In this document: positions 4,654 through 53,319 of the stretch, one piece after another
Position numbering within the stretch: position 1 is the stretch's first letter
Layout of the letters: each line of letters starts with the position of its first letter
DNA from: Peribacillus asahii
GTDB taxonomy: Bacteria; Bacillota; Bacilli; Bacillales; DSM-1321
Reading direction: 5' to 3'
DNA length: 64,000 nucleotides
NCBI RefSeq assembly: GCF_004006295.1
Contig: NZ_CP026095.1
Location: forward strand, 2,342,001-2,406,000
Notes under the pieces: generated by a model
Databases searched by the model: none
What the model was told of the DNA's origin: nothing
Seen by the model: only the letters and a program-made list of their open reading frames with translations
Made by a program: the position numbers and the translations under genes

Positions 4654-5255
4654 TCGCAATCCCTCCTTTCCTAAGACTATCTTTTTCCAATTTGTAAAAT
4701 ATTATCACGTAAATCTATGTGTTTTATTGAAAAGGTGTTATTCAACAATCTGACCCGATTGTTGAATAACATGACTGACGTTTTTGAAACAGCTTTATTA
4801 TGTTTTAAACGACTTTATTATAAATTAAACAACTTTATTATCTCTGTACACCGTCTTGTGAATTGGCTTATAAAAAAGGAATTGATTGCTCAAGATCAAG
4901 AGGAAAATGTCGTTTTCAACTGGAGAGAAAAAGGCGGCTTAAACAAATTTTCTTTTTCCATATCGATCATATATCTTTTTTTGAATAATAGTATCAGTAT
5001 GTCCAAGATTTAGAGATTACTTGCAAGTGTCCTGAAGTTTTTGCACCAGAACCAAGATAAGTAAAGGCTGTTCCTTTTTAGGGACAGCCTGATTCATTGA
5101 TATCCTACTTACACTTTCCTCCTTATCGATGCGGATATGAAATACAGATACAAGCCTTGTCGAAGCAACAACGGAACAATCACGACATTCCTTTGATTCA
5201 GCATAAAATCCGGTAACATGGTAAAAATACAAAAAAATAACGAAGGAGAAAAATA
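4654..5255. other. Intergenic region between cupredoxin and poxB
   Basis: About 600 bases. It holds the perfect palindrome at 4737-4770 and a second hairpin, AGGCTGTTCC with GGGACAGCCT, at 5065-5090. Reading frames here (for example 4717-5013) lack ribosome sites and family features. No gene is supported. Confidence 0.5.
4737..4770. repeat. Palindromic repeat element
   Basis: GTTATTCAACAATC is followed after six bases (TGACCC) by its exact reverse complement, GATTGTTGAATAAC. A similar palindrome built on the same TTCAAnAATC / GATTnTTGAA arms occurs at 27393-27424, and half-sites with GCGCCCGATTGT occur at 15144 and 61912. It is not followed by a T run, so I treat it as a dispersed repeat rather than a terminator. 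Confidence 0.6.
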
Positions 5256-7114: not shown

Positions 7115-7143
7115 AGGGGCTTTAGTTTAATAAGGAATACCAG

Positions 7144-7171
7144 AAGGACCTTAGAGGACAGGGTCCTTTTT
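7144..7171 (+). terminator. Terminator after the poxB unit
   Basis: AAGGACC and GGGTCCTT form a stem around a ten-base loop, followed by a short T run. It probably ended the former poxB-transporter transcript. Confidence 0.6.
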
Positions 7172-7547
7172 GTTTGCTCAAAAATCAATACTATCTTTTA
7201 ACAGATCCTTTCTTTAAGCAATAAGATGAAGTTCACAAAAGTACAACTTTTACACAAAATCATTATCAGTATTCCTAGGCAGCTGAGGGGAAAAAGGCTA
7301 TGGAACAATTAACTTTGCGCTAACGTTTTATGTCATTTGTCGAAGCCGTTCAGGATTTAAACGCTGACCGTTATCGAACTATTGACCGACAAAAGAGGAA
7401 CATCTAAAAAAAGCAGACGTTTCGCTATCCCTCACAATACGAATTAAATGAAAAATGGGCGCTTATCCTTGTTCTGGTATGCTCCCCTTATAGTAGACAC
7501 GTTTTAAAAAGCGCATTAATCTGTCTATTATTAAGGGGGTATTTTTT

Positions 7548-7838
7548 ATGGAGAAAAAAGCAGAGACTTATGATATATCATTCAAGAAAAAAGCAGTGGA
7601 TTTATTTCATCAAAAGAAGAATTATGCAGCCGTTTCCAGAGAATTAAACACTCATCGAAAAAACATACAACGATGGGTTAAACAGTTTAGTGAAGATGGG
7701 ATGGTTGGTCTTAGAGAAAAACGTGGCAGAAAAAGTGGGTCTAGTAGAGTCTCTTCATCTACCTTTGAAAATACCCAACAGAAAATAAAGCGATTAGAAG
7801 CTGAGAATGAACTATTAAAAAAGCTTTTAAAGATGTGA
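7548..7838 (+). CDS. IS3-family transposase OrfA (copy 1)
   Basis: A 96-residue DNA-binding subunit. Helix-turn-helix residues 10-45 (KKAVDLFHQKKNYAAVSREL) bind the inverted repeats, and the C-terminus is a leucine-zipper-like coiled coil (RLEAENELLKKLLKM). AAGGGGG precedes ATG 7548. Near the 3' end, the heptamer A-AAA-AAG at 7817-7823 is positioned for -1 ribosomal slippage into orfB, whose frame is open across it; the fused OrfAB is the usual active transposase in this family. It overlaps orfB by four bases. Identical to the copy at 13113-13403. Confidence 0.93.
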   Translation: MEKKAETYDISFKKKAVDLFHQKKNYAAVSRELNTHRKNIQRWVKQFSEDGMVGLREKRGRKSGSSRVSSSTFENTQQKIKRLEAENELLKKLLKM

Positions 7839-8725
7839 AAGGAGGAATGAATCTAAAACCTAGTATTCTATTTCCAATCATTAATGATTTATCTAAACAA
7901 GCTCACTCTATACAGCTACTTTGTCATCTAGCTAAAGTATCAAGAAGTGGATACTACAAGTGGATAAAGCGTAAAGCATTACCTTCGGAAAAGCAGATAG
8001 AGGATGAGAAGCTAAAGCAGAAAATAATAGAATGTCATCAGAAATATAAGGGCATCTATGGCTATAGAAGAATACAAATTTGGTTAAAGAGGACCTATGA
8101 TATTCATATTAATCACAAAAAAGTTCAACGGTTACTAAGTGAGCTAGGTATTAAAGCAATTATCAGGAAGAAACGAATTTATTACGGTAAGAAAGAACCT
8201 TATCTTATCTCGAATAATTATTTAAATAGATCCTTTTACGCTTCTCGCCCTAATGAAAAGTGGGTAACGGATATTACGTACCTCATTTTCAATGGACAGA
8301 AACTATACTTGTCTGCCATCAAAGACCTATATAATAACGAAGTTGTTGCGTACCAAATTAGTAGACGTAATGATTATAAACTAGTCTTGGATACTCTTAA
8401 AAAAGCCATAAAAGGAAGGAATGTAAAGGGACTCCTTCTCCATAGTGATCAAGGATACCAATACACTTCCCATAACTATAATCAGCTACTCACAAGAAAT
8501 AAAATGAAAGCTAGTATGTCTAGAAAGGGCAACTGTTGGGATAACGCTAGTATGGAAAATTTCTTTAGTCATTTAAAAACAGAATGTTTTAACCTGCATA
8601 CTTTTAAAACTTCACAAGAGGTTAGAACGGCTATTAAAGACTACATTCACTTTTATAACCACGAAAGGTTTCAAACCAAGCTAAACAACCTGACTCCTAT
8701 CGAATATAGAAGTCAGGCTTCTTAA
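7835..8725 (+). CDS. IS3-family transposase OrfB, DDE integrase (copy 1)
   Basis: A 296-residue catalytic subunit with an N-terminal HTH_21-type region and an rve integrase core. The DDE triad is visible: Asp in NEKWVTDITYL, Asp in LLHSDQGYQYTS, and Glu in NCWDNASMENFFSHLK, with the K/R seven residues later (K-T-E). It can start at GTG 7835 inside the orfA stop region (GTGA overlap), but expression as a -1 OrfAB fusion from the A6G site is more usual. The protein is intact and identical to the second copy, so at least one copy moved recently. Confidence 0.94.
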   Translation: MKGGMNLKPSILFPIINDLSKQAHSIQLLCHLAKVSRSGYYKWIKRKALPSEKQIEDEKLKQKIIECHQKYKGIYGYRRIQIWLKRTYDIHINHKKVQRLLSELGIKAIIRKKRIYYGKKEPYLISNNYLNRSFYASRPNEKWVTDITYLIFNGQKLYLSAIKDLYNNEVVAYQISRRNDYKLVLDTLKKAIKGRNVKGLLLHSDQGYQYTSHNYNQLLTRNKMKASMSRKGNCWDNASMENFFSHLKTECFNLHTFKTSQEVRTAIKDYIHFYNHERFQTKLNNLTPIEYRSQAS

Positions 8726-8846
8726 CTGCGCTTATTTTTTTATGTCTACTTGACAGGGGTCAGATCAGTTCAAGGATAGCGCCCTTTTCTTGAATAAGCC
8801 AGAAGCTTGCATATTGGAAAAAGTGAGTTATTAATAAGCTGCTAAT

Positions 8847-9491
8847 CTAGTTAGGCTGCTTGCTAAAGTCTCTCTGAGCTCCCCTATAGCTTCCAATAAG
8901 ATTTTGATATCCAGGAAGTTGGCTAGAAAGTAAAGCGCCAAAGCCTTCAACATCATTGCGCCAATCACGTTGTAACTCGCACGCAATGCTAAACCAGTTC
9001 AGAAGCTGCACCCCACCATGAGCCATACGCATTAATGCCGCATCCGCTACTTGTTTGCTAAATGTTCCAGAAGCATCAGTAGCAACAAATACTTCATAAC
9101 CAGCGTTCACAGCGGAAAGGGCAGGAAATGCAACGCAAACATCTGTCACTACACCAGCAATGATAAGTTGTTTTTTTCCAGTTTCTTCGATTGCTTTGAC
9201 AAAATCTTCATTATCCCATGCGTTAATTTGTCCAGGACGAGCTATTTTTGGCGCGTCAGGAAAAAGTTCTACCAATTCTTGCATGAGTGGTCCGTTAGGC
9301 CCGTTTTCAAAGCTTGTTGTTAAAATAACTGGTAAATCAAAAAACTTTGCGGTTTTAGCAAGCGCCATAACATTGTTCTTGAATTCATCAACACCATAGT
9401 CACGCACAAGGCCGGAAATAAGGCCGGTTTGATGATCCACTAAAAGAACGGCAGCATCATCTTTGTTAAGACGAGAATAGAAATCAGACAT
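8847..9491 (-). CDS. Isochorismatase-family cysteine hydrolase (YcaC-like)
   Basis: A 214-residue alpha/beta hydrolase of the isochorismatase superfamily. The catalytic Asp lies in VLLVDHQTGL (near residue 19), the Cys in GVVTDVCVAFPAL (near residue 118), with the preceding cis-peptide Val-Thr. The C-terminal extension RDWRNDVEGFGALL resembles E. coli YcaC, an octameric hydrolase of unknown substrate, more than nicotinamidase. GGAGG precedes ATG 9491. It lies between the two IS copies and shares direction with an FMN reductase about 180 bases upstream. Fold is secure; substrate unknown. Confidence 0.88.
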   Translation of the reverse strand: MSDFYSRLNKDDAAVLLVDHQTGLISGLVRDYGVDEFKNNVMALAKTAKFFDLPVILTTSFENGPNGPLMQELVELFPDAPKIARPGQINAWDNEDFVKAIEETGKKQLIIAGVVTDVCVAFPALSAVNAGYEVFVATDASGTFSKQVADAALMRMAHGGVQLLNWFSIACELQRDWRNDVEGFGALLSSQLPGYQNLIGSYRGAQRDFSKQPN

Positions 9492-9672
9492 TTTGATGTC
9501 CTCCTTTAATTAAAGTTATCGAAGAAGATTCATAGATTGAAAAATGTATGTTAAACTCCTACGTTTGTTCCAATGTAACTGAACTGATTACTAGTATTCG
9601 TTTTTATAAACTCATTATGTGTCAGTAGTATTTATAAAAAATAAATGATTAATGAAGCTTGGACTTCTTCAA

Positions 9673-10230
9673 TTAATCTAGAGCTGGAGTGTGATCAATC
9701 CAATGAATAAATTGGTGTAAATATTGCTGAAGATAACGTTTTGTTTGTTCGTCTGTAAGGACTTTCTGTTCAGAATCAATCTTTTTATGTACTTGGGAAA
9801 TCAACACTTTTTGAAATGGAAGAACATGAACCTGCATGGCCTCTAGTATTTGTCTGATTTGCAATTGAGCAAAGGCAGTACCTAATCCCCCAGGAGTTGC
9901 ACCAATTAGACCAACCGGTTTTCTGCTAAGAACAGCGGATTCCCGAGGTCTTGATGCCCAGTCCAATGCATTCTTTAATACGCCTGGAATTCCAGAATTG
10001 TACTCTGGACTTAAAATAATGATACCGTCAACGTCCTGGATAGCGGATTTAAATAATGTCACTGTTTCTGGAACACTTATTTCTAAGTCTTCGTTGAACA
10101 AAGGCAGTTCATTAATTTCAATCCAGCGAAATTGATGGGAATCATCCAGTTCTGTTAATGATTGAGCAATGATTCGATTATAAGAGTTTTTACGTAAACT
10201 ACCACAAATAAGGCCGATGGTTTTGGTCAT
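9673..10230 (-). CDS. NAD(P)H-dependent FMN reductase (flavodoxin-like)
   Basis: A 185-residue flavodoxin-fold reductase of the NADPH-dependent FMN reductase family (chromate/azo/quinone reductases such as YieF). Residues 8-16 (CGSLRKNSYN) bind the FMN phosphate; LSPEYNSGIPGVLKNALDW near residue 75 is the family signature, and GATPGGLGTAFAQLQIR follows near 110. It likely detoxifies quinones or xenobiotics. GAGGAGG precedes ATG 10230. It lies upstream of, and on the same strand as, the isochorismatase-like hydrolase. The physiological acceptor cannot be told from sequence. Confidence 0.9.
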   Translation of the reverse strand: MTKTIGLICGSLRKNSYNRIIAQSLTELDDSHQFRWIEINELPLFNEDLEISVPETVTLFKSAIQDVDGIIILSPEYNSGIPGVLKNALDWASRPRESAVLSRKPVGLIGATPGGLGTAFAQLQIRQILEAMQVHVLPFQKVLISQVHKKIDSEQKVLTDEQTKRYLQQYLHQFIHWIDHTPALD

Positions 10231-10623
10231 CCAATTCCTCCTCGTTTGAAATCACTTTCATTTTACCATAATATCCCAAAATATAAGAAGCGACGTTATA
10301 CCTAATTACAAATTTTTTATTTAATGAAGTGTTTATTTCAAAAAAGTTAGAATAGTTTTAGGGATTTAAGGATATCTCTTTTGTTTTCTTTTTATTCGGC
10401 TTGTGTTTGATAAATTGCTTAACATAATAGCAGGGTTAAAAAAGTACTACATCTAATAAATGATGAATTCTAAAAGAATGAAACGAAATGCTTTTAATTA
10501 TTTAACCAAAACCACCATGTTCCAAAGATATGGCAAATGGTTTATGTCATGTTTATTTTTTCTTCCATTTTTTGTATATTTATAACATACTATAAACTAT
10601 AAAGAATTGGAGGGAGTGGAGAA
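10231..10623. other. Divergent intergenic region upstream of ltrA
   Basis: About 390 AT-rich bases separating the FMN reductase and ltrA, which diverge. Both promoters should be here. TATAAACTATAAAG lies shortly before the ltrA ribosome site. I found no coding remnant or clear operator. Confidence 0.4.
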
Positions 10624-11766
10624 ATGGAAGAAAAGAAAGTGACGTGGTTAGAGCTCTTTTATGATTTGTTATTTGTGGCGGCGGTTGCGGCTGCGACTCA
10701 TGTTTTACTTCATGTTGAAGATGGACATATCCATGCAGAGTATTTAGTAAAGTTTGTATTAATTTTTATTCCTATTTGGTGGGCTTGGGTAGGGCAAACC
10801 ATATTTATTAACCGATTTGGAAAAGATTTATTTCATCAACGTATCTTTTTGATCTTGCAAATGTTTTTTGTACTAATTATGACATCAAGTTTATCAGTTG
10901 ATTTTGATCCTTATTATCTTTCTTTTTTAATTGGGTATATTGGCTTAAGAGCAGTAACTGCGATCCAATATCTTATTGTCCAGCGTATAGAAACGGGAGT
11001 TCGAAAACAAGCAGCCCTCTTTTTAGGAAGGTATTTTTGGATTGGAATCGTTATTTCATTATTCTCCGTCTTTTTTGATTCTTGGGTTCGATATGCTGTG
11101 TTGTATACGGGCATCCTTATTGATATTATTATCCCGGTGCTTGGACGAAAGTGCTTAGAAAAGGTTCCAACAAATACGGCTCACCTATTAGAGCGATTTG
11201 GTTTATTTTCCATTATTCTCTTTGGGGAAGCGCTGATTAGCACTCTTGCGATCATTCAGCCTACACAAGGAAATTGGGATTCAATAGGCTTTGCGATCAT
11301 TTCATTTATCCTGATTATATCGATGTGGTGGCAATATTTCGATAACATGGAGAAGAAACTCGACAAGTCTGTACAGACTTCCGGCCAAATCATTATTTAC
11401 GGTCATCTGTTTATATTAATGTCTTTGAGCATGATCGCAGCATCTATCAGACTATTGTTTTTACATGAGGTCCATTACTCATTTATCTTATTTTTTGTTT
11501 TTGGATCTGTATTGCTCTATTTCCTGTCAACTACCTTTGTTTTCCATCAATATAGACATGTGCACCACCGATTGAAAATTTATCATTTAGGGTTATTTTT
11601 AGGAATTTTAGCCGTCTTTTTTATTATTAATTTGATTATTATAGTACCAAATATTTTGATAATAGCTGAATTAACCGTGTTTTTTATTATCTTTACTAAA
11701 TTAACAATTTCTAATAAAAAGCAATCGTCGACAAATGAGATTCATCCGAGAATAAAAAATGTTTAA
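10624..11766 (+). CDS. ltrA: Low temperature requirement protein A (LtrA) family membrane protein
   Basis: A 380-residue polytopic membrane protein. The LtrA signature is at the very N-terminus: KKVTWLELFYDLLFVAAVA, with the family's E-L-F-Y-D motif. It is followed by about ten hydrophobic segments, and GLFSIILFGEALI in the middle is the second conserved block. LtrA was named from a cold-sensitive Listeria mutant; its molecular function is not established. GGAGG precedes ATG 10624. It stands alone between the two IS copies, with a hairpin after the stop. Confidence 0.9.
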   Translation: MEEKKVTWLELFYDLLFVAAVAAATHVLLHVEDGHIHAEYLVKFVLIFIPIWWAWVGQTIFINRFGKDLFHQRIFLILQMFFVLIMTSSLSVDFDPYYLSFLIGYIGLRAVTAIQYLIVQRIETGVRKQAALFLGRYFWIGIVISLFSVFFDSWVRYAVLYTGILIDIIIPVLGRKCLEKVPTNTAHLLERFGLFSIILFGEALISTLAIIQPTQGNWDSIGFAIISFILIISMWWQYFDNMEKKLDKSVQTSGQIIIYGHLFILMSLSMIAASIRLLFLHEVHYSFILFFVFGSVLLYFLSTTFVFHQYRHVHHRLKIYHLGLFLGILAVFFIINLIIIVPNILIIAELTVFFIIFTKLTISNKKQSSTNEIHPRIKNV

Positions 11767-11788
11767 TGTTTAATAGGGGTTAATACAT

Positions 11789-11829
11789 AAAAAAAGACCG
11801 TCAATCCTTCTTGGATTAACCCATCTTTA
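11789..11829. terminator. Terminator after ltrA
   Basis: An imperfect hairpin (AAAGACCGTCAATCC with GGATTAACCCATCTTT) with A and T tracts on both sides; likely bidirectional. Confidence 0.45.
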
Positions 11830-12183
11830 GTTAAAATGGATTATGTCGCAATTAATCAAGAGACCCTCCTGCTACTTAAACCAAACACGTCTCCCCTTTT
11901 TCATCAAATCCGTGCTTAAAATCAAATGCAAAGGAGGGGGTCCATACTAAATATAATAGTTGTATCTCTTGAAAGCCTCCTCCCACTTCAGTTTTTTTAT
12001 TTTATCACTTTAATGCTATAAACCACTAAAATATACTATAATAATCACTTCTTGTTCAACTGCCCGTTACTTTAAGTACATAATTTCACAATCTCCTTTA
12101 AGCTTTAACATAAAGATCTAATTTTCTTTAAAGGAGTTGCTCCACAATATGGCCCTTAAATGAAAAATGAGCGCTTACCATTC
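11830..12183. other. Gene-free stretch left of IS copy 2
   Basis: About 350 AT-rich bases with no supported gene. The last 40 bases (CAATATGGCCC through GAGCGCTTACC) are the left half of a palindromic repeat interrupted by the IS. Confidence 0.45.
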
Positions 12184-12225
12184 TGATCTGCCCCCTGTCA
12201 AGTAGACATAAAAAAATAAGCGCAG

Positions 12226-13116
12226 TTAAGAAGCCTGACTTCTATATTCGATAGGAGTCAGGTTGTTTAGCTTGGTTTGAAACCTTTCGTGGTTATAAAA
12301 GTGAATGTAGTCTTTAATAGCCGTTCTAACCTCTTGTGAAGTTTTAAAAGTATGCAGGTTAAAACATTCTGTTTTTAAATGACTAAAGAAATTTTCCATA
12401 CTAGCGTTATCCCAACAGTTGCCCTTTCTAGACATACTAGCTTTCATTTTATTTCTTGTGAGTAGCTGATTATAGTTATGGGAAGTGTATTGGTATCCTT
12501 GATCACTATGGAGAAGGAGTCCCTTTACATTCCTTCCTTTTATGGCTTTTTTAAGAGTATCCAAGACTAGTTTATAATCATTACGTCTACTAATTTGGTA
12601 CGCAACAACTTCGTTATTATATAGGTCTTTGATGGCAGACAAGTATAGTTTCTGTCCATTGAAAATGAGGTACGTAATATCCGTTACCCACTTTTCATTA
12701 GGGCGAGAAGCGTAAAAGGATCTATTTAAATAATTATTCGAGATAAGATAAGGTTCTTTCTTACCGTAATAAATTCGTTTCTTCCTGATAATTGCTTTAA
12801 TACCTAGCTCACTTAGTAACCGTTGAACTTTTTTGTGATTAATATGAATATCATAGGTCCTCTTTAACCAAATTTGTATTCTTCTATAGCCATAGATGCC
12901 CTTATATTTCTGATGACATTCTATTATTTTCTGCTTTAGCTTCTCATCCTCTATCTGCTTTTCCGAAGGTAATGCTTTACGCTTTATCCACTTGTAGTAT
13001 CCACTTCTTGATACTTTAGCTAGATGACAAAGTAGCTGTATAGAGTGAGCTTGTTTAGATAAATCATTAATGATTGGAAATAGAATACTAGGTTTTAGAT
13101 TCATTCCTCCTTTCAC
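12226..13116 (-). CDS. IS3-family transposase OrfB, DDE integrase (copy 2)
   Basis: A 296-residue catalytic transposase, residue-for-residue the same as the copy at 7835-8725. The Asp of WVTDITYL, the Asp of LHSDQGYQ and the Glu of NASMENFF are all kept. It overlaps orfA by four bases and is reachable by -1 slippage on the A6G heptamer at the end of orfA. No lesion is visible, so this copy should also be active. Confidence 0.94.
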   Translation of the reverse strand: MKGGMNLKPSILFPIINDLSKQAHSIQLLCHLAKVSRSGYYKWIKRKALPSEKQIEDEKLKQKIIECHQKYKGIYGYRRIQIWLKRTYDIHINHKKVQRLLSELGIKAIIRKKRIYYGKKEPYLISNNYLNRSFYASRPNEKWVTDITYLIFNGQKLYLSAIKDLYNNEVVAYQISRRNDYKLVLDTLKKAIKGRNVKGLLLHSDQGYQYTSHNYNQLLTRNKMKASMSRKGNCWDNASMENFFSHLKTECFNLHTFKTSQEVRTAIKDYIHFYNHERFQTKLNNLTPIEYRSQAS

Positions 13117-13403
13117 ATCTTTAAAAGCTTTTTTAATAGTTCATTCTCAGCTTCTAATCGCTTTATTTTCTGTTGGGTATTTTCAAAGGTAGATGAAGAG
13201 ACTCTACTAGACCCACTTTTTCTGCCACGTTTTTCTCTAAGACCAACCATCCCATCTTCACTAAACTGTTTAACCCATCGTTGTATGTTTTTTCGATGAG
13301 TGTTTAATTCTCTGGAAACGGCTGCATAATTCTTCTTTTGATGAAATAAATCCACTGCTTTTTTCTTGAATGATATATCATAAGTCTCTGCTTTTTTCTC
13401 CAT
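13113..13403 (-). CDS. IS3-family transposase OrfA (copy 2)
   Basis: A 96-residue helix-turn-helix plus coiled-coil subunit, identical to the copy at 7548-7838 and with the same AAGGGGG ribosome site and A-AAA-AAG slippage heptamer before its stop. It forms the N-terminal half of the predicted OrfAB fusion. Confidence 0.93.
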   Translation of the reverse strand: MEKKAETYDISFKKKAVDLFHQKKNYAAVSRELNTHRKNIQRWVKQFSEDGMVGLREKRGRKSGSSRVSSSTFENTQQKIKRLEAENELLKKLLKM

Positions 13404-13624
13404 AAAAAATACCCCCTTAATAATAGACAGATTAATGCGCTTTTTAAAACGTGTCTACTATAAGGGGAGCATACCAATTCAAGGATAGCGCCCTTTTCTG
13501 GAATAACCTATTCAATTTCCTAATGAAACGTCCCTTTATAGAGGGACTTGTTTTTTGTTTACTTCGCAATATATGTCAAATTTGAAATTCGCATTTCTTA
13601 TTAAAGAATTGAGCCTTTTTGCGG

Positions 13625-14929: not shown

Positions 14930-15350
14930 CCCTTGTTCCTAGTATATGGTCTTGAATTCATTAAATAGTACCTAAAAACTTGGGATTCCTATAGAAAATA
15001 CAAAGGAATGTTTGTTTAAAAGAAAAAAGAGAGGAGAAATATGGCAGACCTAGGTATTCGCTCCTGATATATTTATTCAAAACCTATATTTCAACAATTC
15101 ACATCGTTATTTGAATAAAAAAACGATCCTTCATATTGAAGAATCGCGCCCGATTGTTGAAGATCAAAGGCTGTTGCAGTTAGCTCGTATTTATTTAACT
15201 CTAGCCCCCGTTAATGGAATAACATTTTTATCTTGCGGAGAAACGTTTCCTGCTTCCCAATAAACTTTACTTAATCTATACACTGAGTTTACTAGACTTT
15301 AATATTCAGACGATATGATTGGTTTAGCAACGAATGAGGAGGCAGTATAA
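14930..15350. other. Intergenic region between the GH18 hydrolase and the HAD phosphatase
   Basis: About 420 bases between divergent genes. It contains a near-perfect hairpin at 15124-15146 (CGATCCTTCA, TAT, TGAAGAATCG), directly followed by a GCGCCCGATTGTTGAAGATC element. No gene is supported. Confidence 0.5.
15144..15220. repeat. Dispersed repeat, GCGCCCGATTGT type (copy A)
   Basis: Begins with GCGCCCGATTGTTGAAGATC and includes AGCCCCCGTTA about 60 bases later. The same two blocks in the same order and similar spacing recur at 61912-61965 (GCGCCCGATTGTGGAAGATC ... AGCCCCCGTTA). This is more than chance for intergenic DNA. Its origin is not known to me. Confidence 0.5.
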
Positions 15351-52978: not shown

Positions 52979-53243
52979 ATTCCTTCACTCCCTAAATAAG
53001 ATCTCGATTTAATTTATTAATCAATATATCTAGAATTAAGATATTTTTAGTTGATATTAATATAATTTATACAATTGAATTTCCAAATAATTTGGATAAG
53101 AAACCCATATCAAACACCACCTATTATTTCTATCTTTAAATTGTTTCATTCACCATTAGGCAGCTTTTGTTAACTCATTTGAACTCTTTTTAAATATCAA
53201 TACAAACCTAAATATTCAGTTTTGATTGGAAGTCTTATTCCAT

Positions 53244-53288
53244 TATGGCCCTAAAATGCAATTGAGCGCCAATTCAAGAATGGCGCCC
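53244..53288. repeat. Palindromic repeat of the IS-target family, unoccupied
   Basis: TTATGGCCCTAAAATG, then GAGCGCCAATTC and AAGAATGGCGCCC. It matches the reconstructed empty sites of the two IS copies (ATGGCCCTTAAATG, GAGCGCTTACC, loop ATTC, AAGGATAGCGCCC) and still has ATTC near its loop. It is the intact third member. Confidence 0.7.
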
Positions 53289-53289
53289 T

Positions 53290-53319
53290 TTAATAGAAGA
53301 ACTTATCATCTTCTATTAA
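53290..53319 (-). terminator. Hairpin downstream of the SDR gene
   Basis: TTAATAGAAGA pairs with TCTTCTATTAA around eight bases, about 55 bases past the SDR stop on the minus strand. Confidence 0.5.

Follow-up and report, generated by a model that had tools for sequence, protein, structure and literature searches.

Insertion of probable IS150-group elements at the axis of terminator-like hairpins in Bacilli, with a Peribacillus asahii branch associated with one palindromic repeat

INTRODUCTION

The insertion sequences (ISs) ISPsy8, IS1397 and ISKpn1, which belong to the IS3 family, target repetitive extragenic palindromic sequences (REPs), and the accessible part of the source places all five of five ISPsy8 copies in REPs of Pseudomonas syringae, at the symmetry axis of a predicted hairpin and with a 3-bp repeat, and IS1397 and ISKpn1 in intergenic palindromes, with the transposase said to set the specificity (PMC1525189). 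In staphylococci, IS1272/TnSha1 of the IS1182 family inserts, according to the available part of its description, into hairpins without primary sequence specificity, several terminators among them, and in both orientations (PMC4923244). The present study concerns an IS3-family element, probably of the IS150 group, with two copies in a 64,000-nucleotide stretch of the Peribacillus asahii genome (NZ_CP026095.1, positions 2,342,001 to 2,406,000, hereafter the window), together with the other copies in this source genome and relatives of the element. Insertion at the hairpin axis is a common pattern over a broad set of Bacilli relatives, in which the usual target is terminator-like with a nearly free stem sequence.

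How DDE transposases select their targets is known best for cases governed by a fixed sequence or by a partner protein. In the IS3 family, including IS911 and IS2, OrfAB makes a circle whose abutted ends attack both target strands a few bases apart.

RESULTS

In the window, IS copy 1 lies on the forward strand at 7475..8767, with the ends TGGTATGCTCCCC...GGGGTCAGATCA, and IS copy 2 lies in the opposite orientation, on the reverse strand, at 12184..13476; both are 1293 bp long and differ by a single base. Each copy has its own target duplication, GTTC at 7471–7474 and 8768–8771 for copy 1 and ATTC at 12180–12183 and 13477–13480 for copy 2, as a preliminary description of the window had claimed. 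The hairpins claimed there were likewise recovered, since excision of either copy plus one 4-bp duplication regains a GCGC-clamped palindrome. On the forward strand, the left arm GGGCGCTTATCCTT with the first GTTC (7457..7474) joins the second GTTC with the right arm AAGGATAGCGCCC (8768..8784) at copy 1, and the left arm GAGCGCTTACC with the first ATTC (12169..12183) joins the second ATTC with the same right arm (13477..13493) at copy 2. The inverted TG...CA ends and the short target duplication (3–5 bp in the family) are features of IS3 elements. OrfA of copy 1 (7548..7838, forward strand, 96 aa) is a helix-turn-helix (HTH) protein matching HTH_28 and HTH_Tnp_1, and OrfB (7835..8725, forward strand, 296 aa) is an IS3-family DDE transposase with the rve domain (NF033516, 323.4 bits against a cut-off of 160); in copy 2, OrfB and OrfA, again of 296 and 96 aa, lie on the reverse strand at 12226..13116 and 13113..13403, respectively. 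OrfB is in the −1 frame relative to OrfA in both copies, and an A6G run near the overlap (7817..7823, forward strand in copy 1) is a candidate −1 frameshift site for a predicted fusion.

A genome search found 15 full copies of the element in the source genome. Removal of the element regains a GCGC-clamped palindrome at 14 of them, more often than chance would allow, and insertions occur in either orientation with respect to the repeat. The preliminary description had named a majority of copies in non-palindromic DNA as the outcome that would make the two window sites a coincidence; the 14 palindromic sites leave its proposal standing. The fifteenth copy (L007) is flanked by two mismatched halves of the repeat and looks rearranged. 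Duplications are 4 bp at 11 copies and 3 bp at one, and no exact duplication was found at L007, L010 and L013. Because L002 and L014 have identical near flanks (the first 30 bases on each side), the 15 copies represent 14 distinct sites. Of the 15 sites, 12 are recognised by a covariance model built on the entire repeat, which misses L002 and L014, which by eye have the right half of the repeat in common, and L005, a GCGC palindrome without the outer parts of the repeat that is perhaps another kind of GCGC palindrome and whose membership in the family is unsure. Among 150 scored of 3645 first-look candidates in 4.9 Mb, the model gave 38 rows at E ≤ 1, of which 14 touch 12 IS copies, one touches an IS remnant and 23 are free of the IS; a large share of a small repeat family is therefore occupied. 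In the window, an empty family member that had been reported at 53244–53288 was matched by the model at 53238..53301 (forward strand, 63.7 bits), and a weaker empty member lies at 15090..15164 (forward strand, 32.9 bits, E 0.0027).

Relatives were collected through OrfB by partial draws of genomes at three ranks, namely the family (43 genomes), the order (397) and the class (398), with at most six candidates scored per genome in the order and class draws; further relatives came from plasmids and from 80 loci of a genome collection. The IS ends were set by the inverted ends (TG-N7-CCC...GGG-N7-CA) and the duplications, never by pairing. Twenty-three loci with OrfB matches above 200 bits were dropped for want of recognisable ends; L056, L171, L168 and L176 were added or replaced through generic end detection, and sites below 240 bits or with an element length outside 1240–1450 bp were excluded. 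The resulting set held 94 distinct sites, 14 from the source genome and 80 from relatives with 45–88% OrfB identity. A first hairpin criterion of at least six crossing pairs was dropped as too lax, because 68–72% of swapped flanks passed it, and it was replaced by the energy of the flank-to-flank duplex, with swapped flanks and displaced centres as controls.

The flanks of the relatives paired with a mean energy of −15.8 kcal/mol, compared with −8.5 kcal/mol when re-paired among sites (80 sites; lowest of 20,000 permutations −9.9; z −22). Taken singly, 53 of the 94 sites paired better than 95% of their swapped combinations, and 67 did better than 95% of displaced centres. At the sites bearing a duplication, own flanks gave −17.7 kcal/mol in the source genome (11 sites) and −16.9 kcal/mol in relatives (63 sites), against −4.6 and −6.2 kcal/mol, respectively, at displaced centres. 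With 22-nt arms, at least 95% of displaced positions were beaten at 10/11 source-genome and 49/63 relative duplication sites, and with 30-nt arms at 9/11 and 48/63. The Watson–Crick fraction, counted symmetrically about the duplication centre, had a sharp peak at shift 0 (0.51 for 62 sites of relatives, 0.57 for 11 source-genome sites), reached background within approximately 2–3 nt and was approximately 0.2–0.25 at 4 nt off centre. The dyad axis is thus the centre of the target duplication. The relatives occupy the loops of hairpins whose sequences are unrelated to one another and most of which resemble terminators. Their stems have almost no sequence in common: up to 9 nt from the insertion, no position carries more than 0.20 bits.

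A tract was defined as at least six T in eight bases on one side or at least six A in eight on the other. Such a T or A tract was present at 62/63 relative duplication sites, compared with 33% of displaced positions, and at 14/14 source-genome sites, compared with 39%; both tracts occurred together at 27/63 relative sites and at 1/14 source-genome sites. The T tract begins approximately 12 nt from the insertion, and of the 63 insertions in relatives 37 have the orientation of the terminator and 26 the opposite one. Among 72 measured sites, the median distance to the closest stop codon upstream was 68.5 nt, with 21 of the 94 sites, which a crude caller placed inside an open reading frame (ORF) of at least 100 aa, left out of this figure. 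For two plasmid sites, uninterrupted terminators were found at homologous places in other Priestia plasmids: the joined flanks of L057 matched an empty site over 98% of the query at 83.8% identity, with a differing loop, and those of L058 matched at 90.7% over the left flank and 55 bases past the junction, with two junction bases missing.

Below 240 bits, 29 more loci had confident ends; 16 of them paired strongly (no more than 5.5% of displaced positions as good) and 13 did not. The strong pairers include long-OrfA elements of Oceanobacillus, Halobacillus, Niallia and Klebsiella. A Klebsiella aerogenes locus (L245), an IS150-like element annotated as ISRSO11-type in the loop of a terminator, gives a hint of the hairpin habit beyond Gram-positive bacteria. 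One IS3 clade, which accounts for nine of the 13 weak pairers and consists of short-OrfA elements from Pseudomonadota, Chloroflexota, Synergistota and one member of Bacillota, had hairpin sites at 0/9 loci.

With 137 candidates scored in each genome, the model detected the repeat at E ≤ 0.001 in 28 of the 36 genus genomes, in places within same-strand arrays of small genes (L302 of genome G022; L303 and L325 of genome G009). By reading, these genes encode GNAT, isochorismatase, DoxX, CPBP and other proteins, and many are followed by the repeat. Among 50 repeat copies, picked from array regions and best matches and thus not random, 40 follow a gene in the sense of the repeat and 32 have both neighbours in that sense; in the window, the repeat at 53238 has both neighbours in its sense and those at 7428, 12140 and 15090 do not. 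A 280-aa tyrosine recombinase is encoded among repeat copies in L325 and approximately 230 bases past a strong copy in L338. It is XerA-like (218.7 bits, cut-off 220) and scores 106 bits with the IntI model TIGR02249 (cut-off 265), above whose cut-off no IntI integrase was found in the 36 genus genomes. Matches to the recombinase at E ≤ 1e-60, some of them broken, occur in 15 of these genomes, and the source genome has a truncated copy (L326, approximately 7990–8670). Units of approximately 1 kb carrying the recombinase, mostly 93–97% identical, lie in differing surroundings (L331–L350) and end at related CGGGGCA/GTTAGTTGAA sites; the recombinase thus appears to move as a cassette itself. Similarly, a GNAT block of 745 bp is 95.7% identical between L302 (3235–3979) and L313 (4554–5297), with different surroundings, and by eye the identity ends at ACTTAAACTATCGGGTGC-like sites. 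The outer arms of the repeat resemble RYYYAAC/GTTRRRY, the consensus of the attC boxes, with very unequal spacers.

An origin of the repeat through REP-associated tyrosine transposases was considered and rejected: the genome has two Y1 transposases, and a motif search allowing up to two substitutions found no repeat in approximately 3.3 kb around each. Nor is it supported that adjacent cassettes trade halves of the repeat, since in six copies of one array, judged by eye, the arms of a copy mostly paired with each other at least as well as with those of its neighbours. At gathering scores, Rfam gave no family in the window, and none of its matches in three array loci fell on the repeat; in L303, a group II intron and the cyclic di-GMP-I riboswitch (9521–9597 and 5156–5238) were matched in or beside the cassette-like array.

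DISCUSSION

Considering these results, we regard it as probable that the transposase of these putative IS150-group elements inserts at the two-fold axis of DNA able to form a hairpin or cruciform. The sites show that the attacks on the two strands fall 3–4 bp apart, centred on the axis of the palindrome and in either orientation, and that each insertion splits the hairpin at its loop. The transposase may recognise an extruded structure or a symmetric DNA shape with no fixed sequence, probably through the HTH and leucine-zipper part of OrfA together with a two-fold symmetric strand-transfer complex. The element and its relatives thus appear to select sites for the symmetry or shape of the DNA and not for its letters, and the branch in the window would have an added preference for one GCGC-clamped repeat. 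A likely benefit would be access to sites past gene ends, where insertion harms little.

It is rather unlikely, while carrying more weight than the other alternatives, that the transposase recognises conserved bases of the palindromic repeat in double-stranded form, the hairpin being incidental. Such reading would fit the use of GCGC-clamped sites by the source-genome copies, most of which the repeat model recognises, the position of the clamps, mostly approximately 7–8 nt on each side of the duplication, and the ordinary terminator-like hairpins at 7142–7170 and 13530–13547, which lie near the window sites and are unused. However, compensated changes in the stem occur even within the source genome (L002, L005, L009 and L015), and the relatives pair strongly with hardly any stem sequence in common.

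The transposase might instead be drawn to RNA polymerase paused at terminators, to an R-loop or to the nascent RNA hairpin rather than to a DNA structure. The near-universal tract and the start of the T tract approximately 12 nt from the insertion are consistent with this possibility, which we nevertheless consider quite improbable, since both orientations relative to the tract are used, the repeat of the window has the weaker tracts and the register is set by the axis, not by the T tract. There is very little likelihood that selection alone explains the pattern, with random insertion and intergenic survivors ending up beside terminators: most sites do lie past gene ends, but intergenic survival cannot centre a duplication on a dyad axis, and the register largely refutes this view. 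That the hairpin halves are long inverted ends of the element itself, as their place beside the IS copies in the source genome might suggest, is scarcely credible, because the flanks vary between copies and species, the duplication separates the element from the arms at most sites and the hairpins are uninterrupted at homologous empty places, which refute this view.

Several observations weigh against recognition of the hairpin axis. Swapping flanks among the source-genome sites left the pairing unchanged (z 0.1), because these sites are alike, so that structure and sequence are inseparable within that genome. Among relative duplication sites, 14/63 failed to beat 95% of displaced positions with 22-nt arms, including L205, L212, L218, L208 and L234, which are off-axis or unpaired, and relative sites without a duplication, which are perhaps rearranged, passed in only 7/17 cases. 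In the OrfB tree, the hairpin habit does not form one clade. It requires 19 changes, whereas shuffled labels require 23.3 and 17 of 500 shuffles come out as low; the counting of rearranged sites as negatives is part of the reason. The midpoint root places the window clade and InsK of Escherichia coli IS150 on one side (84/92), and some hairpin users, namely L198–L238 and the long-branch L078, lie opposite, on the side of the negative clade; the deep forks of this tree are weak. Together with L005 and L007, the tree lessens the support for the axis reading. The formation of hairpins or cruciforms in the cell is itself predicted from sequence. Finally, strong flank pairing was absent in 11 of 12 loci of E. 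coli IS150, the element that names the group (12 loci fetched, picked among 40 listed of 3429 records, with nine different flank pairs), and this element was rejected as a further case of the axis rule because its insertion is off-axis. E. coli IS150 (L280–L291) adjoins hok-family genes in 10 of the 12 loci, mostly at a common structured motif (TATCAACC / CGAGGC), and thus has a strong site preference of its own, off the hairpin axis.

The same-strand arrays lead us to propose, tentatively and with rather less confidence than an even chance would allow, that Bacillaceae of the Peribacillus type have an integron-like system of cassettes, so far undescribed, in which the repeat is both recombination site and terminator, that the XerA-like recombinase of this system is mobile and that the IS of the window is a parasite specialised on cassette sites. 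In this proposal, the recombinase would act on the palindromic repeat. If this is true, the IS lineage of the window would use terminators generally and its branch in the window cassette sites. According to the accessible part of the IntegronFinder 2.0 report, one complete integron and a few attC clusters were found in Firmicutes (PMC9024848); should the repeat prove to be such a site, a system of recombination could be tested in a phylum in which integrons are reported to be extremely rare.

A set of relatives that follows one axis rule across many stems without common sequence, and that includes a branch specialised on one repeat, makes recognition of structure and recognition of sequence directly testable against each other. 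Hairpin-axis targeting also suggests a natural means of harmless insertion after genes, and could unite the REP targeting of Gram-negative bacteria and the terminator targeting of Bacilli under one rule.

The preliminary description had drawn a parallel with IS1397 and ISKpn1. The parallel holds in so far as an IS3 element has inserted at the symmetry axis of a palindromic repeat that lies between genes; it was too narrow in that the relatives use unrelated terminator-like hairpins, and the shared property is therefore the axis of hairpin DNA, of which the Bacillus repeat is one instance. Judged by eye, the repeat of the window appears to differ from REPs, and it is not simply REP-like in that it often follows genes in same-strand arrays. 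The targets of IS1397 and ISKpn1, which have a long OrfA, are enterobacterial REPs, or palindromic units, rather than Bacillus repeats or terminators. ISPsy8 differs in using one repeat family in one species, and the available part of its report does not mention terminator targeting (PMC1525189). IS1272/TnSha1 has a transposase of another family and, in the part of the source at hand, is described as cutting the stem bluntly, with partial deletion and no target duplication (PMC4923244), unlike the IS clade of the window, in which a 3–4-bp duplication is centred on the axis and no sequence is lost. The InsK protein of E. coli IS150 is 43.6% identical to OrfB of the window, yet that element inserts off-axis, mostly beside hok-family genes. 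IS1447 is annotated in the IS150 subgroup and has been proposed as a new subgroup, with no target preference mentioned in the accessible part of the source (PMC6211511), and the part of PMC2817692 available mentions neither Bacillus nor terminators. No paper on terminator targeting by IS3 elements was found among the open-licence papers that the searches listed, a scope that leaves absence unproven. IS3 elements that target REPs are already known, as is the use of terminators by IS1272; the new features here, in our judgement, are that IS3 elements insert into terminators on the axis and with a duplication, and that one branch has specialised on a single repeat.

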